DNA from: Polaromonas sp.
Lineage (GTDB): Bacteria; Pseudomonadota; Gammaproteobacteria; Burkholderiales; Burkholderiaceae_C
Length of the DNA: 64,000 bases
Direction: 5' to 3'
NCBI GenBank assembly: GCA_028291985.1
Contig: JAQGNE010000028.1
Location: 1-64,000 of the forward strand
A program made the position numbers and the translations under genes. This document shows positions 3,952-62,580 of the stretch, piece after piece. The notes beneath the pieces were generated by a model that worked only from the letters and a program-made list of their open reading frames with translations, ran no database searches and had not been told where the DNA came from. Every line of letters begins with the position of its first letter. Position 1 is the first letter of the stretch.

Positions 3952-4714
3952 GATGGTGGGAATTCTTTGCAAGTTGACTGTCGGCAGCGCGAACGGCTGC
4001 GACAAACTGGTTGATTTTTTCGGCGCTTTTGATTCCCTTGGAAATCTCTACGCCTGAACTGACATCAACAGCCAGCGAAAGGCACCGCGGGCTGACCTGC
4101 AAAATGCCATCGGTCACATTTGCAGGCGTCAACCCACCAGACAAAACGAGGTGAGCGTTGACGCTTGGAGGCAGAAGTGACCAATTGAATGTTTTTCCGC
4201 CACCGCCATAACCTTCGACATGGGTGTCAAGAAGGATGGCCTGCGCAGCTTTGAAATCGTGGGCGTATTTTACGAGATCAAAATATCCCGCCTGGCCTGG
4301 CGCTGCGCCGACCTCCCAGGCTTGGGGGATTCGCGCCACACGCAAAAAGGGACGACCTGACGACTGGCATGTCAAAACCGTTTCATCACCATGAAATTGA
4401 AGCAAAGCCGTTGGCAGGCAAGCGCACGCTGCTATGATTTTAGTAGCGTCGGCGTTGACAAAGAGAAGGACCGGCGTCACGAACGGTGGAAGCCTGGCAG
4501 CGAGCTCGGCAGCCCTTTGCGGGCTGACGTACCGTGGACTGGACTCGTACAGTACAAAACCGACTGCATCTGCACCCGCCCGAACCGCTGCATCAACGTC
4601 TTCCTCGCGGGTCAAACCGCATATCTTGATGCGGGTCCTGTGCGGGCTGTCAGCAGGTGTCAGAGGGTTGGCAAAGGGTGCGGTTACGGAGCCGGACGAA
4701 AAGGATTCGTTCAT
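3929..4714 (-). CDS. trpF: Phosphoribosylanthranilate isomerase
   Basis: TrpF isomerises N-(5-phosphoribosyl)anthranilate to CdRP in tryptophan synthesis. The catalytic cysteine is in KICGLT (residue 32) and the aspartate in [10 protein letters not shown] near the C-terminus. The ATG at 4714 overlaps the truA stop (ATGA), which supports it over the TTG at 4723; the protein is 261 residues, with an N-terminal extension of about 25 residues before the barrel. The segment [14 protein letters not shown] (about residues 90-105) is encoded by a copy of the dispersed 17-base-hairpin element and uses codons such as ACT, AAA and ATA that are unlike the surrounding gene. The LLQFHGDE that follows is conserved, so the frame is intact. 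Confidence 0.96.
4391..4447 (-). repeat. Dispersed 17-base-hairpin element, copy inside trpF
   Basis: On the minus strand it begins GCTACTAAAATCATAGC, then CAGCGTGCGCTTGC, and ends in CTTCAATTTCAT. It lies in the sense direction of trpF and is read as Ala-Thr-Lys-Ile-Ile-Ala-Ala. It is 57 bases, a multiple of three. The tail is less like the consensus than in intergenic copies, as expected if it must also encode protein. Confidence 0.6.
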
Positions 4715-5505
4715 GGCAACCAATCATAAGCGGCAGTGCGATCCGGCAAACCCCATCGTTTGTCGTACACCGGACCCAGAAAATAAAGTCCACTAGGTGA
4801 AAAGGTGGGCGCTGCAGCATTTCTGCTTCGTGCAGCCAGCACCTCTGCCATCCATTGCGGCGACTGCTTGCCCTGCCCTACCGAAACAAGGCAACCCATG
4901 ATGTTGCGAATCATGTGGTGCAAAAAGGCGTCGGCTTCAAATTCGAAACGCCAGTATTTCGAATCCCTTCCCGAACGTGGCGATAGGCTGATGGTGGTCA
5001 GGGTTTTTACCGGCGATTTGGCCTGGCACTGCGCTGCACGGAAGGACGAAAAATCGTGCTTGCCGATCAGGTGGGATGCTGCTTCCCGCATGGCGGCTTC
5101 GCTCAGCGGTCTGTAAGTCCAGCCCACACGCCCGGCCTCGACACTTGGCCTGACTGGCGATTCAAGCAGCACATAGGCGTAGCGACGTGCGACAGCACCA
5201 GCTCTGCAGTGAAAGTCTTCTGGCACTTCGCGCACCCACTGCACGGCAATATCAGGCGGCAGGAACGCATTCACGCCGCGCAACCATGAGGACATATCGC
5301 GCTGCAACCCAGTGTCAAAGTGAACAACCTGCATGAGCGCATGGACGCCGGCATCCGTGCGGCCCGCGCACATCACGCGTACAGGTTGCGCCGCAAATCT
5401 TGCAAGCGCCGACTCAAGCTTGTCCTGCACGGTGTTCCCCGATAGCTGGCTTTGCCAGCCTTCGTAAGCAGTCCCGCTATACGCAACCCCGAACGCAATC
5501 CTCAC
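4711..5505 (-). CDS. truA: tRNA pseudouridine(38-40) synthase
   Basis: TruA converts uridines 38-40 in the tRNA anticodon stem to pseudouridine. The 264-residue protein has the catalytic aspartate at 51 in CAGRTDAGVHA and the family motif HHMIRNIMG. It lies between fimV and trpF; the trpF start codon overlaps its stop codon, so truA heads the truA-trpFBA-accD run. This neighbourhood is standard in Burkholderiales. The gap from fimV is 72 bases. Confidence 0.97.
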   Translation of the reverse strand: MRIAFGVAYSGTAYEGWQSQLSGNTVQDKLESALARFAAQPVRVMCAGRTDAGVHALMQVVHFDTGLQRDMSSWLRGVNAFLPPDIAVQWVREVPEDFHCRAGAVARRYAYVLLESPVRPSVEAGRVGWTYRPLSEAAMREAASHLIGKHDFSSFRAAQCQAKSPVKTLTTISLSPRSGRDSKYWRFEFEADAFLHHMIRNIMGCLVSVGQGKQSPQWMAEVLAARSRNAAAPTFSPSGLYFLGPVYDKRWGLPDRTAAYDWLP

Positions 5506-5577
5506 TGATGGCTCGCCGGGCTGCGTCCTGCAGTGTTAGTCAACCCAAAAACTGCGTGACGCTGCGAGCGTGCATGC

Positions 5578-8502
5578 TCACGGCAGCGCATTGATAAACG
5601 TCTGCGCCCTGGTTTTCAGGGCGCCGCTGGCTTCTGCCAATACCTCTTCGGCAAGCGACCGGGCGCCGTCCATGTCACCCAGTGCCCTGAATTCTTCCGC
5701 CAGAGAAAATTTCGTCTCCAGCGGGTCATCTGCCAATGTGCCGATAGCAACGTCAGCGCTTTTCGCGTCGGGTTTGACAGGAGCGTCCAGATCCAGCGAC
5801 AGCGAATCCATATCAAACTCAAGCATGCCTGCGTCCATGATTGCAGGGGCTTTCTGTGGCTCTGGCTCCCTGGCGATCGCTGTCAAGGGGCCCATATCAA
5901 ATTCCAGCACGTTGTCTGGCAATGGCATATGTGCGCCATCCGCGCGGCTCACCGGCGCAGCAGCGACGGCAGGCCGACGCCCTGGTTCGCGCTGCACCGT
6001 ATCAGTGTCGGTCGAAAAGTCCAGGTCCAAGCCGTCCAGGCCATCAAACGCCAGCGCCGTTTCAGGCATCGCAGCCAGTGCAGGTTCAGGTTTTCGGACA
6101 GGCGGCATGACAGGGCTGGTAGGTGCGGGAACTGGCGCCGATGCCGTTGGGGGCTCATCATCGAGGGAAAAGTCCAGGTCGAGGTCGAGGTCGAGGTCAA
6201 AGTCGACCGGCCCTGCAGGCTGCGCAGCCGGTGGCTGTACTTGTGGCAGCGTGCTGGAACCGAAAGCCGCCGCAGCATATGGCGCCTGCGAACCGGTTGT
6301 TGAATCGGGTACGGCTGGCTGCCCGCCGGGTTGATACAGCGGATTTCCTGGGTCCAGGTCGCGGCCCATTTCGCTCACATAGGCCCAGTCGGGACCCTCG
6401 CCGCGGGTCAGCGCGAAAGCCTGGGCGGCCACAACTTCAAACGCCTTGGCGTCCCTGCGCTTGGCGTAGATTTCCATCAACTTGGAGTGAATGGCCACGC
6501 GGCCGGGCGTGGTGCGCATGGCTTCTTTAAGAATCTCTTCCGCCTGCAGGTCACGGCCATAAGCCAGGTATACATCTGCCTCGGCCACGGGGTCCACATC
6601 ACCCGCTGCATCCAGCTGACTGGGGGAATAAACCAGCGAAGAGCCGCTGGCGGGGCCTTCGCTTGTATCGATACGCTGCCCTCCACTGGCACCAAAAAAC
6701 GAGTCCGGCTGGAGACGACTTTCCAGGAAAGAGCTGTCAACCTGAGCGGGGTTGTTACGCTGGCGGTAGCGGTAAAAACCAAAACCAGCCAGCAGTAAGA
6801 GCAGCGCTCCCAATCCAGGGAGCAGCAACGGGTTTTCCGTGAGTTCGTCCAGCAGGCTGGTTTCAGACGCGGGAACCGGGATGATAGGAACCACCCGGGC
6901 TGGCGCCGTAACTGCCGGTCCGCTGGTTACCGCCGCGGGAGCGGCCGAGACATTTGCACCGGTTGATGTACCGCTATTGATCGTCGTGGACGTAACCGCG
7001 GTTGCGGCGGAGGCGGGCGTAGCGGGCGCCGGCACACCGCTCGCCGCAACCGCTGGTGTCGGGGCTACTGCAGAGGCTTCAGCGGCAGGAGGTGCCGCTG
7101 AAGCAGCGCTTGCCGGCTGGTTTGCCGCAGCTGACGCGCCTGCCGCAGGCGTACCTGCCGCGCTTGCAACCACCGCCGGCGGTGCCGCAAACCCTGCTGG
7201 AGGATTGACACCCAAGGGAATGGACGGCGTTTTCGCTGCCTGACCAGACAGGCCAGCTGCCGACGTGCTTGCCGTTGCGGTTCCCGGTGCCGCCGGGGTG
7301 GTTGCGTTGGTTGGTGCGGGAAGACCCGCAATCTTGTTCAAGTCGGCGATGTTCTTGGACAACTCTGCGACACGGGTCGAGGTGTCGCTGGCCTGCCGCT
7401 CACGTGCGATTTTCTCTTCAGCGGCGGCATGACCCTGTACCGCGCCCTTCGACAGGGTCAGCTTGTCAGGCGTGACCGTTGCTGGCGCGCGGTCTTCCAC
7501 TTTTGCCTGCACCTGGCCTGCGGCCTGACGATTGGCTTCGCCAATTTGTGCTGCCGGCACGCTTTGCGCCAAGCTGCGCCTGAATTCGTTGAAGTTTTTA
7601 GCCTGAGCAACAATGGTTCTGCTCGCTTCCGCGGGAGCGACGGCACTGGCAGTGTCGGCACTTGGGATATCGAGGACTGCGCCCGACTTCAGGCGGTTGA
7701 TATTGCCACCGATAAATGCATCGGGATTGGAATTGAGCAATGCCAGCAGCATCTGATCAAGCGATACGCTAGCGGGCTTGCTTTGCGCAGCAATCCGCCC
7801 GGCCGTGTCGCCAGCTTTCACGGTTACCTGTCCGCTGGCTGGCGATCCGGACGGCCCTACTGGCGTGATGGGAGGCGCAGCTCTGGCAACCCCTACTGGA
7901 GCACTCGGCGCAACGCGAGGCACGGGCGCAGGGCGTGGCGCAGCGGCAACTGGACCTGTTACCGAAGCTGATGATGGAGCAGGTCGAGCGGTGGTGGACG
8001 GAACTGGAGCTGGCGATGCAGAGGGTGTGCCTGAAACGAGTGGCGCGGTCGGAGCCACAGAAGAGCCTGACACACCGGATCCGCGCAAGCTCGGTGGGTC
8101 AAAAAGCATGGTGTAGTCCCGGACGATACGACCGGAAGCCCAGTTCGCCTCGAGGATCAGGTCTACAAAAGGTTCGGTGACCGGACGTGTGGTGCTTAAA
8201 CGCAAATAGGCTCTGCCGTTCGCGCGACGTTGCAGGCTGACCTGCAACTCGGCCATGGCGCTGGTGTAGTCCAGACCGGCTGCTCGAAACGCTTCTGCGG
8301 ACGCTGGCCCTGCCCTCAGCGTGGCGGCTTCCTCCGCATTGATGTCCGCTATGTCGATTTCAGCGCGAAGTGGTTCGCCGAGCGCCGATTGGACCGTGAC
8401 ACGGCCCAGCGCCATGGCTTGGGCATCAAAACTTGAGAAACTGCCCAACACAGCGATAGCACCTGCAAGGGCACCAAGACGCCAGCGAAAAGGATTATTC
8501 AT
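5578..8502 (-). CDS. fimV: FimV/HubP-family cell-pole protein
   Basis: The 974-residue protein looks like FimV/HubP, which organise the cell pole and support type IV pili and twitching in other bacteria. In order it has a signal peptide (about 1-30, ending AQAMA), the FimV N-terminal domain (about 31-130), a Pro/Ala/Val-rich linker, a LysM-like peptidoglycan-binding region starting VKAGDTAGRIA (about 228-281), a second long low-complexity Ala/Pro region, one membrane segment (LLPGLGALLLLLAGFGFY, about 560-580), TPR-like helices, an acidic stretch with Asp-Leu repeats, and the conserved C-terminal cap (FRALGDMDGARSLAEEVL). Low-complexity parts explain the many long open frames on the other strand. 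Identity is good from architecture; the exact function here is inferred. Confidence 0.9.
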   Translation of the reverse strand: MNNPFRWRLGALAGAIAVLGSFSSFDAQAMALGRVTVQSALGEPLRAEIDIADINAEEAATLRAGPASAEAFRAAGLDYTSAMAELQVSLQRRANGRAYLRLSTTRPVTEPFVDLILEANWASGRIVRDYTMLFDPPSLRGSGVSGSSVAPTAPLVSGTPSASPAPVPSTTARPAPSSASVTGPVAAAPRPAPVPRVAPSAPVGVARAAPPITPVGPSGSPASGQVTVKAGDTAGRIAAQSKPASVSLDQMLLALLNSNPDAFIGGNINRLKSGAVLDIPSADTASAVAPAEASRTIVAQAKNFNEFRRSLAQSVPAAQIGEANRQAAGQVQAKVEDRAPATVTPDKLTLSKGAVQGHAAAEEKIARERQASDTSTRVAELSKNIADLNKIAGLPAPTNATTPAAPGTATASTSAAGLSGQAAKTPSIPLGVNPPAGFAAPPAVVASAAGTPAAGASAAANQPASAASAAPPAAEASAVAPTPAVAASGVPAPATPASAATAVTSTTINSGTSTGANVSAAPAAVTSGPAVTAPARVVPIIPVPASETSLLDELTENPLLLPGLGALLLLLAGFGFYRYRQRNNPAQVDSSFLESRLQPDSFFGASGGQRIDTSEGPASGSSLVYSPSQLDAAGDVDPVAEADVYLAYGRDLQAEEILKEAMRTTPGRVAIHSKLMEIYAKRRDAKAFEVVAAQAFALTRGEGPDWAYVSEMGRDLDPGNPLYQPGGQPAVPDSTTGSQAPYAAAAFGSSTLPQVQPPAAQPAGPVDFDLDLDLDLDFSLDDEPPTASAPVPAPTSPVMPPVRKPEPALAAMPETALAFDGLDGLDLDFSTDTDTVQREPGRRPAVAAAPVSRADGAHMPLPDNVLEFDMGPLTAIAREPEPQKAPAIMDAGMLEFDMDSLSLDLDAPVKPDAKSADVAIGTLADDPLETKFSLAEEFRALGDMDGARSLAEEVLAEASGALKTRAQTFINALP

Positions 8503-8720
8503 GGGATTTTGAGCCTCCGATGCTCGGGTCTACCTGTAACTTTTTCTGCTGAAGCGCACAAAAAACTTCGACGCGGAAATGCTTGAAAGGACCTTAACAT
8601 CAAGGCATTACACTGACAAGCTGAGACGACACTTTAGTGTGGAGCCCGTGTACCTGAAGAGCTTGAGGGTTTGGTTTGTTGTTACAAACCAACGTGATTT
8701 GACAATTGGTTACGGCTACA

Positions 8721-8746: not shown

Positions 8747-8757
8747 CAGAACGCCCA

Positions 8758-11288: not shown

Positions 11289-11292
11289 TGTC

Positions 11293-11350
11293 ACTATGTT
11301 TTTAATAGCTACTAGCCGGCGTGTTTATTGGGCTAGTTGCCAATTTGATT
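11293..11350 (+). repeat. Dispersed 17-base-hairpin element between leuD and leuB
   Basis: It reads ACTATGTTTTTAATAGC, then AGCCGGCGTG, then TTGGGCTAGTTGCCAATTT. The AGCC/GGGCT pair can form the second stem. It is in the transcribed leader of leuB, opposite to the direction of transcription, and begins a few bases upstream of the leuB ATG. Confidence 0.75.
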
Positions 11351-11413
11351 AAAAAATCAGAAAGGACCGTCTTCACGGGCCATTTTCTGTTGAGCTGCAA
11401 AGCTGCCGGTTGC

Positions 11414-12210: not shown

Positions 12211-12233
12211 AAAGGTGTCCTTGTGCGATTGGC

Positions 12234-13655: not shown

Positions 13656-13965
13656 GATGTTCCTTTGTGGTCGCAAACCCGATTTTAAGCGCGCGGAGTG
13701 CTGTGCAACTGCCGGTTTGATGTCGCGCGTATCCGCCTTTGGCGGTTGACGCATGGACGCAATCGTCTGGCGCCGCCAACGCAGCCGTCTGAAAAACACT
13801 CCGGCATGACGCAGTGGCTGCAGCGGATCCGTTCATCGAATCAAGCTCCCCAACGTGCAGGCCGCTCAGGGCGGCACGTTCAATTTGCAAGCTGTGCCGT
13901 GCCGCCGTTCGAAAGCGTCGGGGGCGGGACGCGGGACAGACCCCAGCACCAATGATGTTGAATTC

Positions 13966-14023
13966 ACGAAAATCCGGCCCCGGCCCTTTGAATCCGTTAG
14001 GTTTTAGCTATGAATAGGGTAGC
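13966..14023 (-). repeat. Dispersed 17-base-hairpin element downstream of gltA
   Basis: On the minus strand it starts GCTACCCTATTCATAGC, continues CTAACGGATTCAAAGGGC and ends GGGGCCGGATTTTCGTG. It fits the family in hairpin length, total length (58) and GGCC-nATTTT tail. It lies directly after the gltA terminator. Confidence 0.75.
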
Positions 14024-14061
14024 AAATTAAAAAGCCCGGTAGCGTATCACTACCGGGCTTT
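14023..14061 (-). terminator. Intrinsic terminator of gltA
   Basis: An 11-base perfect stem (AAAGCCCGGTA / TACCGGGCTTT, 14031-14041 and 14051-14061) with a nine-base loop lies 21 bases after the gltA stop. On the minus strand it is followed by TTTTTAATTTG. It is a strong Rho-independent terminator for the sdh-gltA run. Confidence 0.9.
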
Positions 14062-19475: not shown

Positions 19476-21054
19476 TTACAACGCGTCCAGATTACCCCGC
19501 ATTTCGATGGCGCGGCTGCGCACTGCGGCCCTTTGCTCCGGGCTCATGCGCTGCAGGTTCTTCACCCTCGGGGCGGTACGCGGATTGGCTCCAAACGTGG
19601 CTTCGTGCGCGTCCAGAAAGTTCCAGTACAGCGTGGTCAGCGGACATGCGCTGGGGCCGATGCGGATTTCGGTCTCATAGCTGCAGCCAGAGCAGTAGTT
19701 GCTCATGCCTTTGACGTACCCGCCGCTGGCCACATAAGGCTTTGACGTGAAACGGCCGCCATCGGAAAACAAGGCCATGCCGGCGGTGTTGGGCAGTTCG
19801 ACCCCTTCCACCGCGTCGACATACACCGCGAGATACCAGCCGCACACCTGCTGCGGGATGATCTGCGCGGTGATGCCAAACACGCCTGTCACCATCAGCC
19901 GCTGGATGTGGTGCGAATAGCCGTTGGCCAGCGTCTGGCCGATGGCCTGTCGCATGCGGTTCATGCGGGTATTGCCCGTCCAGTACCAGGCGGGCAAATC
20001 CCGGGTGTGTCCGTAATGACTGGCGGTTTTGAGTCCGGGCATGTCGATGAAATACATGCCGCCCATGAACTCCCGCCAGCCCAGGATTTGCCTGATAAAG
20101 CCCTCAACGCTGGCCAGCTCAAGACCGCGATTCCTGTACGCGGCTTCAGCGGCGACGATGACTTCCAGTGGGCTGAGCAGCCTCAGGTTCATCGAACTGG
20201 ACAGCAGCGCATGCCAGCCAAAATCCAGAGGCGTCCACATCGCGTCCTGGTGCGCACCAAAGTCGGCAAGGCGATGCGCGATAAAGTCATCCAGTGCCAG
20301 CAGCGCCTCCGCGCGCGTGACCGGCCAGTTGAAGCGGCTCAGGTCTCCGGGGTGGTCGGCAATCGCTGTTCGACCAGTTCCATCACCTCCCGCGTGATGG
20401 CATCGTGAAAGAACACGGGCGTTTGTGGCAGATTTTTCGGCCCGGCCCGGCCAAATCCTTTGCGGTTTTCGGTATCAAAATTCCACCGGCCGCCTTCGGG
20501 TTCGTCTCCGCTCATCAGCACGCGATGCTGCCGACGCATGGTGCGGTAGAAAAACCCCATCCGCAAGACGCCAGACGCGAGCGCCTATTTTCTGAATTGA
20601 GGCAGGCCGCACAGGAAGTGCTTGTCCTCGCGCCACTCCAGTGCAGATTTAAGCCTTTTTGGCCGCGAGCCCCCGTATTTGAAGGGGATGTAGCTACTGA
20701 TTCAATAGCGTTTTCAATCTGGTCGCGTACCCGCATGTCGCCAAGCTCTGCCGCGATCACGCGCTGCGGCCTGAATTGGCTTATGGCTGCGGTCAAACCG
20801 GCGGCCAGGCTGCTGTCGTTTTCGATATGCAGCGAGCGGTAGTGCACCTGCCAGCCGCTTGTGCGCAGGGCCACGTAAAAGTGCCGCATGGCCGATAGGA
20901 AGCGCGTGCATCGAATCTTGTGCGACCAGATGTGCGTGGATTCTTCGGCGGTTTCCACCATCAGTACCACGTCCTGAGCGGCATCGAAACCCTCAAACGC
21001 CGAAGACGCGTCATCCAGCTGGTCACTCAGAACAAAAATCAGATGGCGGCGTAA
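19476..21054 (-). pseudogene. Decayed photolyase/cryptochrome-related gene (FeS-BCP class)
   Basis: Pieces of one photolyase-related protein follow each other in different frames. The N-terminal part reads HLIFVLSDQLDDASSAFEGF but has no good start codon (TTA CGC CGC CAT). The frame is lost at a dispersed repeat copy (20649-20709). The gene continues in another frame as WREDKHFLCGLPQFRK, then an in-frame TAG (20585-20587), then LRMGFFYRTMRRQ and PEGGRWNFDTENRKG. A second shift near 20352-20366 leads to DHPGDLSRFNWPVT and the C-terminal half, which keeps the iron-sulfur cysteines (CGWYLAVYVDAVEG, YCSGCSYE, CPLTTLYW). Intact relatives are (6-4) photolyases or bacterial cryptochromes with a 4Fe-4S cluster. 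Several separate lesions make a sequencing error unlikely as the only cause. Confidence 0.88.
20649..20709 (-). repeat. Dispersed 17-base-hairpin element in the photolyase pseudogene
   Basis: On the minus strand it starts GCTATTGAATCAGTAGC, continues ACATCCCCTTCAAATACGGG (CCCC/GGGG second stem) and ends GCTCGCGGCCAAAAAGG then CTTAAA. Conserved photolyase sequence before it (GDMRVRDQIEN) and after it (LEWREDKHFLC) are in different frames, so the element coincides with the frameshift. Confidence 0.75.
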
Positions 21055-21070: not shown

Positions 21071-21322
21071 TTATGGCGATGTAGTGGAAGGTGCCATCAA
21101 CTCGGGCGGACAAAACAAACCGTGCATCGAAGGCGCTCTGTCAGCTGCCGCCGGGCTGCGATGTCGATACAGGCGCAGCCTTGGATTTGCTGGCGCGGCA
21201 GGCGTTAGACCGTGCTTCACCGTCTCCCAGTTTTTCGCCCAGCTTTTACGCCAGCTCATCTCGCAGCCGGACACCCTGCAAGGCTTGCTGGAAAGTGCCG
21301 ATTTGTTTCCCTCAAAGGACAT
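21071..21322 (-). pseudogene. Decayed DUF2256 zinc-ribbon gene
   Basis: The first 45 codons resemble DUF2256, a small zinc-ribbon family. Intact members read roughly C-x2-C-x-x-x-WRKKWAKNWD-x-V-x-YCS-x-x-CR. Here the order is PCRVSGCEMSWRKSWAKNWETVKH: the second cysteine of the first pair is a serine codon (TCC). After KH the frame is wrong; in a neighbouring frame the DNA reads SNACRASKSKAA, the expected second half. So there is a small deletion plus a substitution where TGC-TCT would be expected. In my memory of other genomes DUF2256 genes often lie beside this photolyase class, which fits the decayed gene just downstream. Confidence 0.62.
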
Positions 21323-23364: not shown

Positions 23365-23500
23365 AAGCGTTACAAGCGTCGGGCGGTCTACCGGAGCAGC
23401 TTTTGGCTGAACCGACGCCTGCCACCGGTGGGCCGTGGTTCGGCCAGGCCATAACCGCTGCCGCTAGTCGCTTGTTTGTGTTTTACTGTCCTTGCCAGCC

Positions 23501-24493
23501 ATGAACCGCCACCCACGCGACGTGCTGCTGGGCGCGCAGGCCGCTGCGGCCGTGTTGCCCGTTTGCGACCACTACAGCGGCACCGAAACCCGCATGCGAA
23601 AAAGCCTCAAGCTGCAGGCCGACATGTGCGAAGAGTTTGGTGCCTGCGTGTTCGACGTCACTCTCGACTGCGAAGACGGCGCACCGGTTGGCGGCGAACA
23701 GGACCACGCGGCGATGGTGGTGGCGCTGGCCGCGCTGGCCGGCGAAAAATCCCGGGTCGCGGTGCGCGTGCATGCGGTAGACCACCCGGCTTTCCAGTCT
23801 GACATGGCGACCATCGCCGGCCAGCTCTCCCGCCGGCTTTGCCACATCATGGTGCCCAAGGTTGACACGCTGGACGATGTATTGACAGCCGAACGCGCCT
23901 TGCTCGCCGCCTCCGCGCCAGACCTGCCGCTGCATGTGCTGATCGAATCGCCGCTAGCCGTTCGCAACGTCTTTGAAATCGCCGCGCATCCCCGGGTGCA
24001 GTCCCTCAGTTTCGGGCTGATGGACTTTGTCTCCAGCCATGGCGGCGCAATTCCGGCGGATGCCATGACCAGCACCGGCCAGTTTTCGCATCCGCTGGTG
24101 GTGCGCGCCAAGCTCGAAATTGCCTCAGCCTGCCATGCCCACGGGAAGGTCCCTTCGCACTGCGTGGTGACGGAATTCAGTGACACCGCCGCGATGGACG
24201 CGGCCGCCCGGCATGCGGCGCGCCAGCTGGGATATAGCCGTATGTGGAGCATCCACCCGGACCAGATACGGGCCATTCTGCGGGCTTTCGCGCCAGATGC
24301 GCGCGAGATTGAAAACGCTACCAAAATAATAGCTGCAGGCGCTCATGTTGCCTGGGCTCCAACCAGTTTTGATGGTCATTTGCATGACCGTGCAAGTTAT
24401 CGCTATTTTTGGCAGGTTCTGGAGCGTGCGCACCAGACCGGCCGTGAGCTTCCTCCCGAAGCGCAGGCTTATTTTTCGCCTGCGCCCCACTGA
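23501..24493 (+). CDS. HpcH/HpaI-type CoA-ester lyase (CitE/malyl-CoA lyase family)
   Basis: A 330-residue TIM-barrel protein of the citrate lyase beta / malyl-CoA lyase superfamily. The metal-binding acidic motif is VTLDCEDGAP, and LHDRASYRYFWQVLERAH is a typical C-terminal stretch of this group. It lies between mdh and an exported protein in the TCA cluster, so it may act on a malate- or citrate-derived CoA ester, but the substrate cannot be read from the sequence. I chose the ATG at 23501 over a TTG three codons earlier. Near the C-terminus the segment ATKIIAAGAHVAWAPTSFDG is encoded by a copy of the dispersed hairpin element, and the conserved frame continues after it. Confidence 0.88.
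   Translation: MNRHPRDVLLGAQAAAAVLPVCDHYSGTETRMRKSLKLQADMCEEFGACVFDVTLDCEDGAPVGGEQDHAAMVVALAALAGEKSRVAVRVHAVDHPAFQSDMATIAGQLSRRLCHIMVPKVDTLDDVLTAERALLAASAPDLPLHVLIESPLAVRNVFEIAAHPRVQSLSFGLMDFVSSHGGAIPADAMTSTGQFSHPLVVRAKLEIASACHAHGKVPSHCVVTEFSDTAAMDAAARHAARQLGYSRMWSIHPDQIRAILRAFAPDAREIENATKIIAAGAHVAWAPTSFDGHLHDRASYRYFWQVLERAHQTGRELPPEAQAYFSPAPH
24317..24375 (+). repeat. Dispersed 17-base-hairpin element inside the CoA-ester lyase gene
   Basis: It starts GCTACCAAAATAATAGC, identical over 17 bases to the copy at 34720, then GCAGGCGCTCATGTTG and CTGGGCTCC, with the tail CCAGTTTTGATGG. It is in the sense direction of the gene and is read Ala-Thr-Lys-Ile-Ile-Ala-Ala. Confidence 0.75.
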
Positions 24494-28534: not shown

Positions 28535-28992
28535 GCAGGCTCCGACGCTGGTTGATAAGCACCCATGCTAGGCCGCGGATGCAGCGCGGGCCCTCATCCT
28601 CAAGCGCGGCAAGCTGTCAGCATCAGCTGACACCTCGAATCAAAAGCAGCACTGCTGGTGCCCCATCAGTGTGAGTGACTACGCAGCGATCTGGCTCACG
28701 ATCTGCCCGCCCGGAATTCGCTTTGCGCTGCGATCCGGGGCGTATATGGCAAGGCAATATCGAACCGCAAATTGGAAATTCAAGAAAATAGTGGCTGTAT
28801 GCCAATACATACCTTGCGTGATAGCTATCAATAAAGAAGCAAAAAAACGCTTCACCAGCGCTGGCCGGACGACTTGCGCCTACAGCCCGATGTGAAGTCA
28901 ACCGCTCACATGGCTCGCCGCGCCTGCGTACCGTCAGCGATGTCGTGCCCCTGCCAGAATAGGGGTTGCTGGCTAACCTGAAGGAATCTGTC
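28535..28992. other. Non-coding stretch upstream of acnA
   Basis: These 458 bases separate the divergent FMN-binding protein gene and acnA. They hold a dispersed hairpin element (28783-28840) and the acnA ribosome site (AAGGA near 28981). A short minus-strand open frame here has no ribosome site or known similarity. The region between 28740 and 28850 is clearly AT-richer than its surroundings. No operator was recognised. Confidence 0.55.
28783..28840 (-). repeat. Dispersed 17-base-hairpin element upstream of acnA
   Basis: On the minus strand it begins GCTTCTTTATTGATAGC, continues CACGCAAGGTATGTATTGG and ends CAGCCACTATTTTCT. The outer stem is slightly imperfect (GCT/AGC), but spacing and tail fit the family. 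Confidence 0.62.
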
Positions 28993-34665: not shown

Positions 34666-34991
34666 GGAGGGTTTGAAGGTTGAAGAGGGCAGCGGGGCAG
34701 CATTGACGTACTTTCAGGCGCTACCAAAATAATAGCTATATCCGCCCGTAATACCTGGTCCAGAGCCTTATTTTTCCCATAATTTGCACGCCACCGGTAA
34801 AACCGTCTCTGCCGCATGCCTTGCCATGCAGCTTGACTGCCATGGCGCCAGCGCTGCCCATACTTCACAACATGCCTGTGTGGTCTGCGCCCGGGCCTGT
34901 AACGCCCGTTAACCTTAAAACCTTTCGTCGGCCGCAGCCGCAACTTCCATAATGGTGCGAAGCGGCGCGGATTCCATACAGGAGGCATTCA
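34666..34991. other. Non-coding stretch between methyltransferase and patatin-like genes
   Basis: This 326-base divergent intergenic region carries a dispersed hairpin element (34720-34778) and the GGAGG ribosome site of the patatin-like gene at 34980. No further gene or clear operator was seen. Confidence 0.55.
34720..34778 (+). repeat. Dispersed 17-base-hairpin element upstream of the methyltransferase gene
   Basis: It begins GCTACCAAAATAATAGC (identical to the copy in the CoA lyase gene), then CCGCCCGTAATACCTGGTCC and AGAGCCTTATTTTTCC. It is intergenic. Confidence 0.75.
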
Positions 34992-39979: not shown

Positions 39980-40627
39980 TCATGCAAGCTCGCGCAGGAT
40001 GGCGCGTACCGGCGATGCGTCAGCGCGCATCAGTTTGAGGGGCAGGGCGATCAGCTCATAGTCGCCCTCGGGAACGTCATCAAGCACCAGGTTTTCCAGC
40101 ACCCGCAGGTCATGCGCCAGCAACTGCTGGTGGCTCGGCAGGTGCTGGCTGGTAGCGGGGTCAACGCTGGGGGTGTCAATGCCGACAAGTGCTATGCCTT
40201 TTGTAGCTAAAAGCCCGATTGTTTCGGGGGCTATGGCTATAAAAGACGCCCACGATTGACTTGCCGTGTTGCTGGTGCGCAGCAGCACGCGCCCCGGCAG
40301 GTCCGGCAGTGCATGCGCAATATGCAGGGGCAAGACCAGCGGGCCACAGTCGATGCAATGGATGACGCGACAAGGGCCGATATAGGTGGCCAGGTCAAGC
40401 TCGCCGGAACTGGCGCCGCCATTGGCATAGTGCATCGGTGCATCCGCATGGGCGCCGGTGTGGGGCGACAGCGTAATACTGTTGACGTTGACCGGGCATT
40501 CCGGCGAGCGTGAAAAATGCAGCCGCTGGCAATACGCGGTGTCTCCGGGGAACACGGGCGATTGCTCGTCCACCGGCGGCGATATGTCCCAGATGCGGGG
40601 TGTGCTTGCATGGGTTTGGCGGGTCAT
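39980..40627 (-). CDS. kynB: Kynurenine formamidase
   Basis: KynB hydrolyses N-formylkynurenine to kynurenine and formate. The 215-residue protein has the metal-binding motif [14 protein letters not shown] (H-x3-H-x-D) and the [10 protein letters not shown] and GIDTPSVDP regions. It is the first gene of the kyn operon. The segment [20 protein letters not shown] (about residues 130-150) is encoded by a dispersed hairpin element read on its antisense side, with AT-rich codons (ATA, TTA, AAA). Family members align there without a gap as far as I can recall, so the protein is probably functional. Confidence 0.96.
40191..40246 (+). repeat. Dispersed 17-base-hairpin element inside kynB
   Basis: It begins GCTATGCCTTTTGTAGC, then AAAAGCCCGATTGTTTCGGG (second stem CCC/GGG), then GGGCTATGGCTATAAAAG. 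It is antisense to kynB. The gene reads the hairpin as Ala-Thr-Lys-Gly-Ile-Ala. Confidence 0.7.
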
Positions 40628-45073: not shown

Positions 45074-46639
45074 GTGTCACTTTTCAAAGCCGCCTCTACC
45101 GTATCCGTGCTGACGCTTGTTTCCCGCATTACCGGCCTGGTGCGCGAGCTGTTGATGGCTTCCACCTTCGGCGCCAGTGCCATGACGGATGCGTTCAATG
45201 TGGCGTTTCGCATTCCAAACCTGTTTCGCCGCATGTTTGCCGAAGGCGCTTTCAGCCAGGCTTTTGTGCCGGTTCTGGCTGCCAGCAAGGCCCGGCACGG
45301 TGAGGCTGAAACCAAGCTGCTGATCGACAAGGTTGCGACACTGCTGACCTGGGCGCTGCTGCTGACCTGCTTTGTGGGTGTGGCCGCAGCACCGCTGCTG
45401 GTATGGGCGATGGCAAGCGGCCTCAAGCAGGAGCCTCAAGGCTATTCGTCGGCAGTTTTCATGACCCGCTGGATGTTTCCCTACATCGGCTTCATGTCGC
45501 TGGTGGCGCTGTCGTCGGGCGTGCTGAACACCTGGCGCAGGTTTGCGGTTCCGGCGGCCACGCCGGTCTTGCTGAACGTGGCGATGATTGCAGCCGCCTG
45601 GCAGGGCGCGCCGTGGTTCGCATCACGCGGCATCGAGCCGATCTACGCGATGGCGGTGGGCGTCATGGTGGGCGGTGCGCTCCAGCTGGCTGTACAGGTT
45701 CCGGCGCTGCTGCGCCTCGGATTGCTGCCGAAAATATCATTGAATTTGGCGCTAGCCCGTGAAGCTTGGGCGGACCCAGCTACAAAAAACATAGTTAAGT
45801 TGATGCTGCCTGCGCTGCTGGGTGTCAGCGTCGCGCAGATCTCGCTGCTCATCAACACTCAGATTGCGTCCTACCTGACGCCCGGCAGTGTGAGCTGGCT
45901 CACCTACGCTGACCGCCTGATGGAGTTTCCGACGGCGCTGCTGGGCGTGGCGATCGGTGTCGTGCTGACGCCTCAGCTGGCAGCGGCCAAGGCGGCCAAC
46001 GATCCGGAAAAGTATTCAGCCATGCTCGACTGGGGCTTGCGTATCGTGGTGCTGCTGGCCGTGCCATGCGGCGTCGCCTTGCTCACCTTTGCCCAGCCGC
46101 TGGTCGCCACGCTATACCACTATGGCGCGTTTTCAGCGCGTGATGTGCAGCAGACCACCACGGCGCTGATGGGCTACGGCGCCGGGCTGCTCGGACTGGT
46201 GGCAATCAAGGTGTTGGCGCCTGGCTTTTACGCCAGCCAGAATATCAAGACCCCGGTACGTATCGCGCTGGTGGTCTTGGTTATCACCCAATTGCTGAAC
46301 ATGGCGCTGGTGCCAGCGTTCCAGCATGCCGGTCTTGCGCTGGCGATCGGGTTTGGCGCGCTGATCAACGCCCTGTTGCTGTTGATCGGCCTGATCCGCC
46401 GGGGCAGCTACCGGCCTGCGGCAGGCTGGTTGATCTTTTCCGCCCAGGTGGTGGGAGCGAGCGCGTTGCTGGCGGCGTTTCTGTTGTGGTCGGCCGAGCA
46501 TGTTGACTGGATCGGCCTGAAGTCGGCATATTTGCAACGGATTGGCCTTCTTGCTTCCGTCCTGCTTGCATCGGCTGCGCTGTACTTTGCGGCACTTTGG
46601 GCGTCTGGCCTCAAGCTGCGCCAGCTGATTCGCCGTTAA
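45074..46639 (+). CDS. murJ: Lipid II flippase MurJ
   Basis: MurJ moves lipid II across the inner membrane for cell-wall synthesis. The 521-residue protein starts at a GTG (MSLFKAASTVSVLTLVSRITG) and has about 14 membrane helices; TFGASAMTDAFNVAFRIPN and LLGVSVAQISLLINTQIAS are typical. The segment LNLALAREAWADPATKNIVK, in a cytoplasmic loop, is encoded by a dispersed hairpin element on the antisense side. The conserved KLMLPALLGVSV follows directly, so the frame is kept. It is divergent from rpsT with 129 bases between them. Confidence 0.96.
   Translation: MSLFKAASTVSVLTLVSRITGLVRELLMASTFGASAMTDAFNVAFRIPNLFRRMFAEGAFSQAFVPVLAASKARHGEAETKLLIDKVATLLTWALLLTCFVGVAAAPLLVWAMASGLKQEPQGYSSAVFMTRWMFPYIGFMSLVALSSGVLNTWRRFAVPAATPVLLNVAMIAAAWQGAPWFASRGIEPIYAMAVGVMVGGALQLAVQVPALLRLGLLPKISLNLALAREAWADPATKNIVKLMLPALLGVSVAQISLLINTQIASYLTPGSVSWLTYADRLMEFPTALLGVAIGVVLTPQLAAAKAANDPEKYSAMLDWGLRIVVLLAVPCGVALLTFAQPLVATLYHYGAFSARDVQQTTTALMGYGAGLLGLVAIKVLAPGFYASQNIKTPVRIALVVLVITQLLNMALVPAFQHAGLALAIGFGALINALLLLIGLIRRGSYRPAAGWLIFSAQVVGASALLAAFLLWSAEHVDWIGLKSAYLQRIGLLASVLLASAALYFAALWASGLKLRQLIRR
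45738..45795 (-). repeat. Dispersed 17-base-hairpin element inside murJ
   Basis: On the minus strand it begins ACTATGTTTTTTGTAGC, continues GTCCGCCCAAGCTTCACGGG (second stem CCC/GGG) and ends GGGCTAGCGCCAAATTCAAT. It is one of the copies closest to the consensus, although it lies within a coding region (antisense). The gene reads the stem Ala-Thr-Lys-Asn-Ile-Val. Confidence 0.78.
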
Positions 46640-47585: not shown

Positions 47586-47670
47586 GCTGGCACTGGAACT
47601 GGAGCTGGAGAAGTAGCAGGGCCAAGACCTGCATGGCGCCTCACCGTATCCGGATTTGCCGAAAATAGGG

Positions 47671-47726
47671 TGAAATCGGCCTCTGGCCCAGTATTTACGC
47701 CGGCTGCTAGCTATTTAATTAGTAGC
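47671..47726 (-). repeat. Dispersed 17-base-hairpin element between sirB1-like gene and purM
   Basis: On the minus strand it starts GCTACTAATTAAATAGC, continues AGCAGCCGGCGTAAATACTG and ends GGCCAGAGGCCGATTTCA. It lies in the short convergent gap, 48 bases past the purM stop. Confidence 0.75.
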
Positions 47727-47774
47727 AGATAGGTGATCAAACCCGATGGCAAATCGGGCTGGACGCTTTGGCCC

Positions 47775-49788: not shown

Positions 49789-50478
49789 ATGGACACCATG
49801 ACCCAGCCGCCCCCGCGAAAAATTGCGCTTTTTGACCTGGATCACACCCTGATTCCGATGGACTCCGACTATGCCTGGGGCGAGTACACGATGGCGCTGG
49901 GCTGGTGCGACAGCGCGCAGTTTGCGAGGACGAACGCCGTTTTTTTTGAGCAGTACAAAACCGGCACGCTGGATATTCATGCCTATGTACGTTTCGCCAC
50001 GCAGGCGATAAGAGAGCAGGGCGCTATAAGATCGATAGCTGCACGCCAGGACTTCATGCGGGATGTGATCGGAAAATGCTTGAAACCCAGCGCTCTTGCG
50101 CTGGTCCGTCACCACCAGGATGCCGGCGATGAGGTCGTGATCGTCACTGCCACCAATGAATTCGTGACCCGTCCGATTGCTGACGCTTTCGGCGTTGATG
50201 AACTGATAGCCGTCGAACTTGAGCGCAATGCCAGCGAATGGTTCACCGGAGAGATCAGGGGCACGCCGTCTTTCAGAGGCGGCAAGGTGGCGCGCGTACA
50301 GGCGTGGCTGGATGCACGCCAGCTGGACTGGAAAGATGTCGAGACGACGTTTTACTCGGACTCCATGAACGATCTGCCACTGCTTGAAAGGGTAAATCAA
50401 CCGGTTGCCACCAACCCGGACGACCGGTTGCGCGCACTTGCCTTGACGCGTGGGTGGCGCATACTTGAGCTGTTTTAG
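49789..50478 (+). CDS. HAD-superfamily (IB) phosphatase
   Basis: A 229-residue HAD hydrolase of subfamily IB, related to phosphoserine phosphatase. The nucleophile motif is LFDLDHTLIPMDSD, motif II is VIVTATNEFV, the lysine is in FRGGKVARVQ and the acidic motif is YSDSMNDLPLLE. Substrate unknown. Its ATG directly abuts the hda stop codon. Within it, GAIRSIAARQ is encoded by a hairpin that matches the 5' part of the dispersed element (50023-50039). Confidence 0.9.
   Translation: MDTMTQPPPRKIALFDLDHTLIPMDSDYAWGEYTMALGWCDSAQFARTNAVFFEQYKTGTLDIHAYVRFATQAIREQGAIRSIAARQDFMRDVIGKCLKPSALALVRHHQDAGDEVVIVTATNEFVTRPIADAFGVDELIAVELERNASEWFTGEIRGTPSFRGGKVARVQAWLDARQLDWKDVETTFYSDSMNDLPLLERVNQPVATNPDDRLRALALTRGWRILELF
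50023..50039 (+). repeat. Partial dispersed element (hairpin only) inside the HAD gene
   Basis: The sequence GCTATAAGATCGATAGC matches the 17-base GCTAY-N7-RTAGC hairpin, but the rest of the element is not clear. It is in phase to be read Ala-Ile-Arg-Ser-Ile-Ala. Confidence 0.4.
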
Positions 50479-54920: not shown

Positions 54921-54962
54921 ACCCCGACTTTACAATGCGGCGATTTTCCAGGCAGGGCAATC

Positions 54963-58578: not shown

Positions 58579-58664
58579 GTGCTTCAGCCAGCATGCGCAT
58601 TTGTGCGGCGTGGAGAGCAGCAGCCTCCGGCTGCCAGCCCGAACCGCGCTATTTTCAGAAATTT

Positions 58665-58726
58665 AAGTAAATAATGGCTGGAGCCCAGGTATTATAAGGG
58701 CCTCTAGCTATTAAAATTATAGTAAC
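58665..58726 (-). repeat. Dispersed 17-base-hairpin element between eda and gloA
   Basis: On the minus strand it begins with ACTATAATTTTAATAGC, continues AGAGGCCCTTATAATACCTG (GGCCC / TGGGC second stem) and ends GCTCCAGCCATTATTTAC. It lies in the 185-base convergent gap. Confidence 0.7.
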
Positions 58727-58763
58727 CGGCTTCTGCCTCATCACGCCCTGGCAGTGCGGTGCT

Positions 58764-59174
58764 TTAGCGCAAACCGGCTCCGGCCCCCTGTTCGGCACGC
58801 TGGATCAACTCAATCTTGTAGCCATCCGGGTCGGTGACAAACGCGATCACGGTACTGCCGCCTTTGACCGGGCCAGCTTCGCGCGTTACGTTGCCGCCTG
58901 CTCCCTTGATCTTTTCACAGGCGGCGTACGCGTCTGGCACGCCCAGCGCAATGTGGCCGTAGGCGTTGCCCATGTCGTAGCTCTCCACGCCCCAGTTGTA
59001 GGTCAGCTCGATTTCTGCTTGCGCCGGGTTGCCCTCATAGCCCACAAAGGCCAGGCTGTACTTGTAGTCGGGGTTTTCAGACTGGCGCAGCAGCTTCATG
59101 CCGAGCACCTGGGTATAAAAATCAATCGAGCGCTGGAGGTTGCCAACGCGCAGCATGGTATGAAGCAGTCGCAT
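58764..59174 (-). CDS. gloA: Lactoylglutathione lyase (glyoxalase I)
   Basis: GloA converts the methylglyoxal-glutathione adduct to S-lactoylglutathione. The ATG at 59174 gives 136 residues. Metal ligands fit His5 ([10 protein letters not shown]), Glu in [10 protein letters not shown], His in YGHIALGV and Glu in [10 protein letters not shown]. The C-terminal tail is short and Gly/Ala-rich. Convergent with eda. Confidence 0.95.
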
Positions 59175-59494
59175 AAGGTCGCACTTTCTCGTAGACAAAG
59201 CAGGCGATTGTCCGGCAATGACGCCGGCCGTGCTGGCCGGTGCCAACAGCCTGACAGCTCAGCCCGGTTTGCCGTCACGCCTGTGCCTGTATTGGACGGA
59301 CGTCCGGTTATTCCGGAAACCGTTTTTATCGCCCGGCTATCGGGTTGTAGAACGGAAGGAAGCCTGGCTGAACGCGCATTGGCAGTCGGTGCAAACGCGC
59401 GTGCCGTGCACCGCAGGCGGTTGATGGCTTCAACCTGTTTGGTCTGGTACAGCCAGGGTCGCGGCAGGAACAGAGCCCGCCGCGGGCGATGCCT

Positions 59495-59877
59495 CTACTT
59501 CTCGCCACCACTGGCCTTTGCCACATAACGCGCCAGTGCCGCGATCTCTTCCTCTGACAGGATGGCCGTGTAGGACGGCATATTGCCCAGGCCATTGCGC
59601 AGGGCCTTGCCGACGCGTGCCATGTCGGGTTTGAGCTCATCCAGCACCGGGCCTACCGCGCCTTCGGTGCCGGCTTGAGGGTGTGGCACACGGCGCATGC
59701 CCGCACCGCATTCACGAACAGTTTTTTGCCCAGCGCCATTTGCGCCGCCTCATCAGCGGCCATGGCTGGCATGCCGACCGCGCCTGCAAGCAGCAGCTGC
59801 ATCAAGCGCTGAAAGCCCGCGCGAGGCAGGCACGGCGCCGGGGGGATGCAAGGCCGGCTCATGCGCGGCGGATTCAT
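59495..59877 (-). pseudogene. Decayed c-type cytochrome, sulfite dehydrogenase subunit B
   Basis: The first frame gives a signal peptide (LMQLLLAGAVGMPAMA) and a heme motif CAVCH (in NAVRACAVCHTLK), then ends at a TAG. The next frame carries on with the expected second half, AGTEGAVGPVLDELKPDM and NMPSYTAILSEEEI with the axial methionine, to the end at 59495. One missing base near 59672-59682 explains this. Its start overlaps the end of the sulfite dehydrogenase pseudogene (ATGA), as in a normal sorAB pair. A single frameshift could be a sequencing error, but the partner gene is also broken. Confidence 0.82.
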
Positions 59878-60973
59878 GCGACCGTGATCTTCACGGCATG
59901 GTCAGGCCAGCTGGTGTTGGTGTAACCGCTATGGTTTTCACAGCGTGCCTCGGGCTGCACGTTGCCAGCGGTATCGGTGGCGCGGCTGCTCAGGGTGTAG
60001 CTGCCTTCGGCCAGCCGTGCCTGCAGCACAATCGGGCGCACCATGCCGGGCTTGAGCTTGCCGCTGGCCGGGCCGTCCTCGGCGCTCGGCGAGTTGATCC
60101 ATGACTTGACGGTCATCTCCTGAACCGACGGCTGGCTGGGGTCGCTCTTGCCGCCGGCGGGCGTCATGCGGTAGCTGTGCGACATGATCCTGGCATCGCT
60201 TTCCTGTGCAGTAAAAGCCAGCTGCTTGACCTACTTGATGTTGTTGACGCCGGTGTAGCCTGGCACGATCAGCCGGAGCGGGCCGCCATGCGCCAGCGAT
60301 ACCGGCGCGCCGTTCAGCTCCCAGGCCAGCAGCGCGTCTGCCATGGCTGCAACTGGCAACGAACGTTCGACCATGATGGTTTTGGGGTCGATCCCGGCGG
60401 GCAGGGTCTGGCCGCCGGTGCCTGTCATGTAGGCCCGGCCGGTTGCCAGCCCGCCAAGCGCTTCAACCACCGCGCGAACCGGCACGCCGCTCCACACCAC
60501 GCAGCCGGCGGCGCCCACTGTCCAGGGCGTTCCGCTTGGCTTGCTCGGAAAGAAACTACGGCCATTGCCCGAGCACTGCAGCACCATCGCCACGGTTTCG
60601 ATGCCCATGGATTTCAGGTCGCGCACCGTCAGCTTGCGCGGGTTTTTCAGGCGTCGATCATGATTTCCCAGCTGTCACGGTCGGCCACGATGGAAGCGTC
60701 GGGCGCCGGCAGGTTGTTGCGAATGTAGAGCTGCTCGGAAGGGGTGATGACACTGGTGCCAAATGCGCTGCGCTTGGTCTCGATGGTGGTGGCGCTGTGA
60801 ACGATGACGCTGGCCGGTTCTTTGAAAGCCGCGTAGGCGGGCAGGGGCCTGGCGGCCGCCGGTGTTTGAGCCACGGCTCCCGTGGACCAGCTTGCCATGC
60901 CCAGGATGGCCAGGGCGTTGGTGCTTCCGGCAAGGACATGGCGGCGGGTAAGGGCGCTGTCGGGTGTTGTCAT
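59874..60973 (-). pseudogene. Decayed sulfite dehydrogenase (SorA-like) molybdenum subunit
   Basis: The protein is in three pieces. The N-terminal part (from the ATG at 60973) has a twin-arginine signal (LTRRHVLAGS) and runs to SWEIMIDA, where a missing base near 60648-60655 shifts the frame. The second frame, KNPRKLTVRDLKSMGIE, holds the molybdenum cysteine in VLQCSGNGRSFF and VWSGVPVRAVVEAL, and stops at a TAG (60231-60233) in NNIK-stop-VKQLAF, where a Trp codon TGG is likely. The same frame continues to DHAVKITVA. Intact SorAB oxidises sulfite to sulfate in the periplasm. Confidence 0.85.
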
Positions 60974-61108
60974 GCGGGTCTCCATCAGGGTTATGAGCTC
61001 CGAAGGCAAGCCGTTTGACCCGGCCAACACCGCCAATTTTCTAGATACTTACCCGTCGAGTCATCGGCAATCGTGGCGACGCTGCATCGCTGACGCAGGC
61101 GATTGGGG

Positions 61109-61933
61109 TTACACCGCTACCGTGTAGTTCAGCGCCATCCGCCCGCCGTCCACCACGACGATCTCGCCAGTGATATAGCTGGCCGCGTCGCTGGCGAGAT
61201 AGGCCACCGTGTCGGCTATTTCCGAAGGCTCGCCAAGCCGCTTCATGGGTGTGCGGCTCAGGATCCTGTTTGTGGCATCGTGGCTGGTCAGGACGGCCTT
61301 GGCCGCCAGTTCGGTGGCTATCGTGCCTGGGGCGACCGCATTCACGCGGATGCCCCTGTCCGCCAGCGACAGCGCCATCACCCGGGTCAGCTGGTTGATG
61401 CCGCCCTTGCTCACGTTGTAGCTGGCAATCGAAGGAATCGCCAGGGTGGCGTTGACCGAACTCATGTTGATGATGCTGCCGCGTGAGGCGAAGCCGCCTT
61501 CGCCCGCGCGCGCCTCGGCGCCTGCCATGACGCGTGCCACGGCCTGGCCGACCAGAAAGGCGCCGATCAGGTTGACGCGCAGCACGGCTTCAAAGTCTGC
61601 TGGTGTGATGTCCAGAAAGTCGCTTGCCTTGAAGATGCCCGCGTTGTTGACCAGTACGTCAATACGGCCGTGCTCAGCCACCACGCTGGCTACCAGCGCA
61701 TCAACCTGTGCCTTGTTGCCCACATCGCAATGCACATAGCTGGCGCCAAGCTCGGCTGCCAGTGCCTGGCCACGGCTGTCGTCGATATCGGCCATGACAA
61801 CGCTTGCGCCCTCGCGGGCAAAACGCCGCGCACAGGCCTCACCGATGCCTTGTGCGCCGCCGGTCACGATGCAGACGCGGCCCTGCAGGCCAAACGATAC
61901 GGCGCTGCTCTTTAATGATGTTTTAATGCTCAT
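61109..61933 (-). CDS. SDR oxidoreductase, likely sugar dehydrogenase
   Basis: A 274-residue SDR with the NAD(P) loop [12 protein letters not shown], the motif NNAGIF, and active site [21 protein letters not shown] (Ser, Tyr-x3-Lys). [14 protein letters not shown] closes the protein. Its ATG overlaps the dgoA stop (ATGA), so it is part of the sugar-acid operon. By context it may be a galactose, arabinose or fucose 1-dehydrogenase that feeds the pathway, but the substrate is not shown by the sequence. Confidence 0.9.
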
Positions 61934-62580
61934 GTTCTTATCCTGCCTCCGCATGAAGCTATGAAAATCATAGCATTTTCGCCCGCCTCGCCAGCAGTGG
62001 TTCCGGGCTTGTACAGGGCCGAACCGATGCCGAAGCCGTTGGCGCCGGCGTCAAAGTAAGCGCGCATGTTGCTCGGCGTGATGCCACCCACCGGCATGAT
62101 GATGGTGGATGCGGGCAAAACCGCGCGCAAGGCCTTGACCACGGCAGGCGTTGCCATCTCGGCCGGAAAGAGCTTGAGCCCGGTGGCGCCAGCGTCCAGC
62201 GCGGCGAATGCCTCGCTGGCGGTCATCACCCCGGGCAGGCAGACCAGGTGCAGGCGAGCAGCTTCACGCACCACCACGGGGTTGAAGTTGGGCGACACAA
62301 TCAGTTGGCCACCGGCTGCGTGAACCTGGCGCACATCTTCGGCGGTAAGTACCGTTCCGGCCCCGATCAACGCCTTGGGGAAAGCGCAGGCCATCGCTGC
62401 AATGCTTTCCAGCGGCTGCGGCGAGTTGAGCGGCACCTCGATCAGCGACCAGCCGGTTGCTGTCAGCGCCTCGCCTACCGGCAGGGCCTCGGCCGGACGG
62501 ATGCCGCGCAAGATCGCCACCAGCGGAGTCGTCAGCAGTGCATGGGCAAATTTTTGGTGTGGATTCAGGGTGGGGCTCAT
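61930..62580 (-). CDS. dgoA: 2-dehydro-3-deoxy-6-phosphogalactonate aldolase
   Basis: This 216-residue KDPG/KDPGal-type aldolase cleaves the phosphorylated keto-deoxy sugar acid to pyruvate and glyceraldehyde 3-phosphate. It has Glu in [10 protein letters not shown] and the Schiff-base lysine in TGLKLFPAE, and [11 protein letters not shown] at the C-terminal side. [13 protein letters not shown] favours the KDPGal group, and its neighbour dgoK agrees. The C-terminal [15 protein letters not shown] contains a hairpin of the dispersed element. The ATG at 62580 is chosen; the upstream frame overlaps dgoK. Confidence 0.92.
61958..61974 (+). repeat. Partial dispersed element (hairpin) at the 3' end of dgoA
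   Basis: GCTATGAAAATCATAGC is a perfect GCTATGA/TCATAGC inverted repeat with an AAA loop, of family length 17. The rest of the element is not clear. The dgoA frame reads it Ala-Met-Ile-Phe-Ile-Ala. Confidence 0.5.

Follow-up and report, generated by a model that had tools for sequence, protein, structure and literature searches.

A 64,000-nucleotide stretch of Polaromonas sp. DNA (GenBank assembly GCA_028291985.1, contig JAQGNE010000028.1, positions 1 to 64,000; hereafter the window) carries dispersed copies of an element of approximately 65 bp (~54 bits), comprising a 17-bp dyad core, GCTAYN7RTAGC, and an outer part near TGCTTGCGCCCGT-n6-TGGGCTAGAGGCCTATTT, which lies between genes and, in one reading phase and mostly at unchanged protein length, inside them. 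On balance we favor the reading that this element is a double-stranded DNA recognition sequence of a putative lineage-specific protein, which would have arisen by in-place substitution and been kept by selection or drive. A more specific version, in which Polaromonas and related Comamonadaceae would use it as a genome-wide self-DNA signal not described before, 65 bp long, dyad-cored and protein-read, serving kin-DNA uptake or chromosome handling, rewriting protein stretches in place and being lost genome-wide together with its reader, is put forward tentatively, with a little less than even confidence. About one third of our expectation goes to a DNA-uptake role, argued by analogy, about one third to a chromosomal role and the remainder to other causes.

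The core occurs 404 times in the window's genome, compared to 42 times for its reversed control, and the window itself holds 10 perfect GCTAN9TAGC cores, against a shuffle mean of 0.28 with no shuffle reaching 10. Alignment of 112 intergenic copies yielded the consensus attTGCTATtaATTTaATAGCTGcTTgCGCccGT...tcaTGGGCTA.aGgcctATTT. The original prediction, made from the letters of the window, had described a 17-base hairpin; this core is real, but the copies are longer, and those in genes match the outer part too. The outer 48 bases of 51 coding copies (3 copies in the Tyr phase discussed below included) score 10.8 on average against −20.4 at 4955 random coding positions, and 50 of the 51 outscore the 99th percentile (−5.1) of the latter. 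Covariation of the core stem columns was looked for in the aligned copies and none was found, the pairs TA, CA, TG and CG at columns 4 and 12 numbering 57, 26, 19 and 10, as expected for independence. Since the stem columns do not covary, the element looks like a site in double-stranded DNA. Binding of a dimeric protein to the dyad would, as judged from sequence, account both for independent columns and for genic copies being present in either orientation. The window has three related stretches near CGCCNGGCTTTTACGCCAGC, at 21236-21255, 46218-46237 and 47685-47704; since the last of them shares bases with the intergenic copy at 47662-47729, all three may be outer parts of the element.

Inside genes the element is read nearly always with GCT first, giving Ala-Thr/Ile-x-x-Ile/Val-Ala-Ala... 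on translation. The phase sample consisted of carrier (many-copy, as defined below) Polaromonas DNA with 1603 called genes and 521,702 codons, orthologous regions being counted repeatedly. Among 57 copies within called genes, 54 follow the GCT-first phase and the remaining 3 fall in a phase that reads Tyr, for chance expectations of 0.42 and 1.96, respectively; by site cluster, 18 of 19 are GCT-first (two of the clusters in murJ) and one is Tyr-phase. Coding-copy counts are rough, because the crude gene finder missed the window's trpF and photolyase remnant and may have called a few false genes. Another phase always contains TAG, as had been predicted. The third phase (xGC-TAY-...-AGC) is open, is by codon usage about 4.7 times likelier than GCT-first (3.76e-6 versus 8.07e-7), and is used at one orthologous site only. 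Its 3 copies were rejected as real use of the element, as they belong to one MerR-type gene with SYRLYS residues and are near the chance number of about 2. The predicted GCT-first rule is real, and it follows from TAG in one phase and the presumed cost of a Tyr/Ser reading in the other.

The copies within genes of the window all share this phase (phase 0), in line with the original prediction. Gene names are those given earlier and plausible from the translations, the photolyase label likewise being only a reading, and flank scores denote the match of the bases outside the core. On the minus strand, copies lie in trpF (gene 3932-4714, minus; element 4383..4450, core 4431-4447, flank score 10.2), in the open frame called a photolyase remnant (20515-20970, minus; 20645..20712, core 20693-20709, flank score 15.2) and at the 3′ end of a dgoA-like gene (61930-62580, minus; 61910..61977, core 61958-61974, flank score 9.7), and antisense in murJ (45074-46639, plus; 45731..45798, core 45779-45795), the latter with one mismatch (ATAGT) and a flank score of 15.4 on the minus strand. 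On the plus strand they lie in a CoA-lyase-like gene (23492-24493, plus; 24314..24381, core 24317-24333, flank score 19.6), antisense in kynB (39980-40627, minus; 40188..40255, core 40191-40207, phase 0 on the coding strand) and in a HAD-family gene (49789-50478, plus; 50020..50087, core 50023-50039), where the outer part is weak in this genome (flank score 1.5). That the codons of the element are unlike those of its host genes was borne out as well: the share of A or T at third codon positions is.91,.77,.70,.64 and.37 at the lyase, HAD, kynB, trpF and murJ sites, compared to.28,.26,.23,.38 and.20 in the whole genes.

It had further been claimed that the element overwrote coding sequence rather than lengthening it, and for lyase, HAD, trpF, kynB and murJ this stands, orthologs without the core being equally long. 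Local length at the site is equal in 30 of 30 loci each for HAD (the best 30 of 59), trpF (the best 30 of 55) and lyase, and murJ aligned without a gap in 30 of 30 (the best 30 of 59). The kynB comparison took in 80 named loci, the best named relatives being Polaromonas, and the window's own gene. Local length is equal in 78 of these 81 sequences; of the other three, L036 and L045, both from Polaromonas and both with the core, have four extra codons directly 3′ of it and L091, without the core, has two. The kynB genes of Achromobacter, Hydrogenophaga and others show equal local spacing and no motif. A gap at the site was found neither in the lyase, HAD, dgoA, trpF, MobA-like and YbgI-like genes nor at either murJ site (dgoA, MobA-like and YbgI-like genes being compared in carriers only), and the dgoA element stands at the matching place, ungapped, in G175, G182, G198 and G205. 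The claim fails for an aconitase-like loop, for two genes of G000 compared with G207 and for copies in signal peptides and linkers, where small gaps occur between carriers; copies in such loose stretches may change length. At G182 126923 in a joined stretch, and in its orthologs, the core falls in an apparent signal peptide (FRPLALAACAL-ATNYVAAQ), and species differ by one core base. A GC-rich insert of approximately 81 bp in trpF of G200 (L276/L277), which contains a CCCCCTCGGGGGG palindrome and which four aligned relatives do not have, seems to be a genuine insertion of a repeat other than the element, and trpF of G193 gives a similarly split match.

The original prediction also held that overwriting would need a templated, gene-conversion-like process, which we do not find to be required. 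Partial core matches (7/8, 6/8) are frequent at the same sites in orthologs, murJ carries its core via synonymous codons within a conserved PATxNIAKLM stretch, and the lyase flank of non-carriers already resembles the element; stepwise substitution under selection or drive is favored by these partial matches and synonymous routes and is enough. A templated origin is possible for single copies, though not needed. Many copies are common to orthologous places, and codon conservation is high at the lyase site (rank 1 of 325 windows), where the same synonymous codons, ATA included, recur, and at those of kynB (rank 4 of 208) and HAD (rank 11 of 220). The mismatch spectrum was taken from 14 sets (1.295 Mb, without G175 and G182 and with the non-carrier G181, orthologous regions counted repeatedly), with one order-2 Markov run per set as expectation. 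Perfect cores were seen 133 times for about 2 expected (excess ~131), one-mismatch cores 129 times for about 70 (excess ~59) and two-mismatch cores 1117 times for about 1137, without excess. From decaying inserts, many more near-misses would be expected. In the one-mismatch copies of carriers the mismatch is most often at core position 3 or 13 (35 and 32 of 129); as both positions are also common in G207, a non-carrier (11 and 7 of 43), they were set aside as evidence.

Copy number divides the 61 genomes of the genus into 24 non-carriers with 0-34 copies and 37 carriers with 74-650, at a threshold of 70 copies chosen after the counts were known. In tests that ignore kinship, 32 of 35 carriers and 0 of 18 non-carriers have at least 7/8 of the core at the lyase site (Fisher p 2e-11; 53 of the 60 genomes with a lyase match compared); for trpF the numbers are 18 of 22 and 0 of 8, and for HAD 20 of 25 and 0 of 5. 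The flanks follow: over these codons, the scores of carriers and non-carriers are 12.2 versus −2.4 for lyase, 12.1 versus −10.3 for trpF and 2.9 versus −18.1 for HAD. Because the non-carrier lyase score is high relative to random coding sequence (−2.4 against −20.4), this site appears to be element-like already without the core. A lyase tree computed with the site masked needs three changes, two of them forced by well-supported branches, and groups two non-carriers, G152 and G181, with the carriers. Degradation in G181 extends to the sites in lyase (6/8), HAD (4/8) and trpF (3/8), and in G152 to those in lyase (4/8) and trpF (3/8). Such simultaneous loss at several sites, seen in one gene tree and two nested cases, would be the expectation for loss of a reader. 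Across the family (150 genomes, the window's included), 132 genomes hold at least one core; many few-copy genomes hold far fewer cores than reversed controls (1 versus 83 in G066), the core being rare there either by composition or through avoidance.

Elsewhere in the window, intergenic copies lie on the minus strand at 764..831 (core 812-828, flank score 15.4), 13959..14026 (core 14007-14023, flank score 10.0) and 47662..47729 (core 47710-47726, flank score 18.3). A plus-strand copy at 34717..34784 (core 34720-34736, flank score 25.1) is taken as intergenic, the 109-codon open frame that crosses it being uncalled by the gene finder. One-mismatch copies are found at the 5′ edge of a leuB-like gene (11290..11357, plus, core 11293-11309, flank score 25.8) and on the minus strand at 28776..28843 (core 28824-28840, flank score 11.5) and 58659..58726 (core 58707-58723, flank score 23.2).

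We envisage that a trans-acting protein would read the element and that copies would arise by substitution where the sequence already resembles it, genic ones settling where a GCT-first reading suits the protein and intergenic ones mostly near 3′ ends. Selection for the site, or a drive like biased DNA uptake, would then keep the copies, and in a lineage that loses the reader they would decay across the genome. What the data show is the sequence, its phase, the unchanged length at the main sites, conservation at some of these, the tie to genome-wide copy number and the absence of stem covariation; the existence of a reader, the sequence of steps and the kind of benefit gained are parts that we infer. 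If this is true, selection or drive on a DNA signal changed amino acids in enzymes such as KynB and TrpF (in murJ, mainly codons), few-copy relatives are without both the signal and those residues, and uptake-sequence-like behavior extends to a long dyad element, a case of which we know none in this family. The 37 carriers and 24 non-carriers form a natural experiment for finding the reader.

Other explanations have to be weighed against the same data. The gene context was clear for 100 intergenic copies: convergent genes flank 49 of them (17.4 expected from length), tandem genes 40 (65.2) and divergent genes 11 (17.5). The median distance to 3′ ends is 59 bp, and the 112 copies of the sampled stretches number 56 per strand. 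These features and the dyad core also suit a site bound by a chromosomal protein (of nucleoid, segregation, topology or transcription-end function), selected locus by locus and with no part for uptake, and this we hold to be a serious possibility, if not the one we would choose; a chromosomal binding protein would leave marks identical to those of uptake. It sits less well with non-carriers, which keep the genes open without the sites, with copy numbers that vary widely between genomes and with the spacing of copies, in which evenness was looked for and near-randomness found (coefficients of variation of 1.16 and 0.91 for 65 and 61 listed sites). The inverted repeats, lying close to 3′ ends of genes, might be those of an RNA hairpin or Rho-independent terminator; this we consider very improbable and have rejected, as the arms neither pair in excess nor covary: C-A mismatches in the core are as frequent as independence predicts, the outer arms show no clear excess of paired bases, with columns 26 and 38 as one weak exception (z 3.9, 70 paired versus 66.4 expected), and genic copies occur in both orientations.

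A mobile element that transposes in the manner of repetitive extragenic palindromes (REP) or miniature inverted-repeat transposable elements (MITE), its genic copies surviving only in frame, would explain why asymmetric copies with two inverted-repeat parts are scattered by the hundred, and one intergenic copy in G187 does lie within a 102-bp length difference. Apart from this difference, a lengthening REP/MITE insertion finds no gap at the main genic sites, relics with one or two mismatches are too few for decaying copies, and many copies stand at shared orthologous places; we consider this origin unlikely. The gene content of the genus bears on it from both sides, since a RAYT-like gene (NF047646) exceeds the curated cut-off of its model in 21 of 37 carriers and 5 of 24 non-carriers (Fisher p 0.008, kinship ignored), with scores near the cut-off on either side, while a match as such is present in 60 of 61 genomes (36 of 37 carriers and 24 of 24 non-carriers); for the skew above the cut-off we offer no explanation beyond kinship. 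Ectopic gene conversion or microhomology-bounded replacement, overwriting native sequence in one step as the original prediction had it, finds its best case in the aconitase-like gene, which has the full element in G175 and G200, whereas G153, G182 and G198 are 24 bp shorter there and resemble both element ends. We rejected this copy as a one-step copy-in of 24 extra bp and do not use it as proof, since wider orthologs show the loop to be of variable length anyway; the long form is shared by G173, G186 and G207, and partial matches at other sites suggest steps. Conversion is thus an improbable source of the copies.

Set against the favored reading, of a protein-read site that spread by substitution, are several observations, to which the differences from described uptake sequences in dyad symmetry, length and 3′-end bias, given further below, are to be added. 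No reader protein for the element was found. ComEC is present in 33 of 37 carriers and 20 of 24 non-carriers and GspH-type minor pilins in 35 of 37 and 22 of 24, so that the presence of these competence and pilus genes does not explain the carrier split and was rejected as its cause. Core counts in the family do not fall cleanly into two groups (at most 20 in 99 genomes, 21-99 in 13 and at least 100 in 38), and the murJ core of at least 7/8 is present in just 7 of 28 carriers (and 0 of 2 non-carriers). As one deep group (its support weak with G207 and better for the other 15) accounts for 16 of the 18 non-carrier lyases, the carrier association does not amount to 18 independent events. Codon conservation at the site is absent in trpF (rank 124 of 237) and murJ (rank 436 of 514), raw one-mismatch cores are as numerous as perfect ones (129 versus 133), and the ortholog comparisons cover the best-matching loci and genomes stated above. 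A plasmid search with a single 101-base copy-holding stretch gave no match, which says little. In comEC of G163, G187 and G164 the ComEC domain match is split in two within one open frame, which suggests an in-frame insert.

A literature search, confined to top-ranked results, returned no function for the element. The closest likeness is to DNA uptake sequences (DUS of Neisseriaceae, USS of Pasteurellaceae), which also have many copies in and outside genes; for the element, the excess of copies likewise falls with mismatches (~131, ~59, none). Passages of PMC1939737 argue that uptake sequences build up through point mutation of sequence already in place and are located at weakly constrained coding positions, and the element too appears to accumulate by in-place substitution, with exceptions in loops, linkers and signal peptides. 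Reading-frame bias is described in a part of PMC2346458, and lineage dialects with one stop-bearing frame in a part of PMC3630211; the element shows both the bias and a stop-bearing frame. Unlike uptake sequences, which are short and non-palindromic according to those passages of PMC1939737, it has a dyad core, ~65 bp and 54 bits; unlike those described, it has a strong 3′-end and convergent bias, and the competence genes examined here do not track its carriers.

Rickettsia palindromic elements, in the account given in part of PMC10969869, are likewise palindromic repeats read in frame in unrelated genes; they are of about 150 bp and integrated into the gene, whereas the element mostly keeps length and is at some sites conserved at the DNA level. 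An in-frame lengthening insert of their type was rejected, as the main genic sites are equal in length to coreless orthologs. That source also cites Mattes et al. 2008 (Polaromonas JS666 genome) for a MITE. The BRE repeat of Bordetella and Comamonadaceae, listed in a portion of PMC3110155 for Polaromonas JS666 (29) and CJ2 (4), is similarly dispersed, with some copies within coding sequence; at ~90 bp and far fewer copies it is set apart from the element by description, not by sequence. A section of PMC5217627 (2017) gives, as potential novel motifs only, ATAGCT(N)22CAAAAG in Polaromonas naphthalenivorans CJ2 (125 copies: 101 intergenic, 18 genic and 6 overlapping; 34 convergent) and GCTTAT(N)5AAGCG in Acidovorax ebreus (44 convergent, 4 divergent and 59 co-oriented), both with the convergent lean of the element. 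The CJ2 pair occurs 4 times in the sampled carrier DNA (G173 and G195), twice with its ATAGC as the right half of a core, and is probably part of the element, as judged in the DNA of these other carriers and not of CJ2; we infer the Acidovorax pair to be a dialect of it. That section describes neither the full element nor its phase, orthology or carriers.

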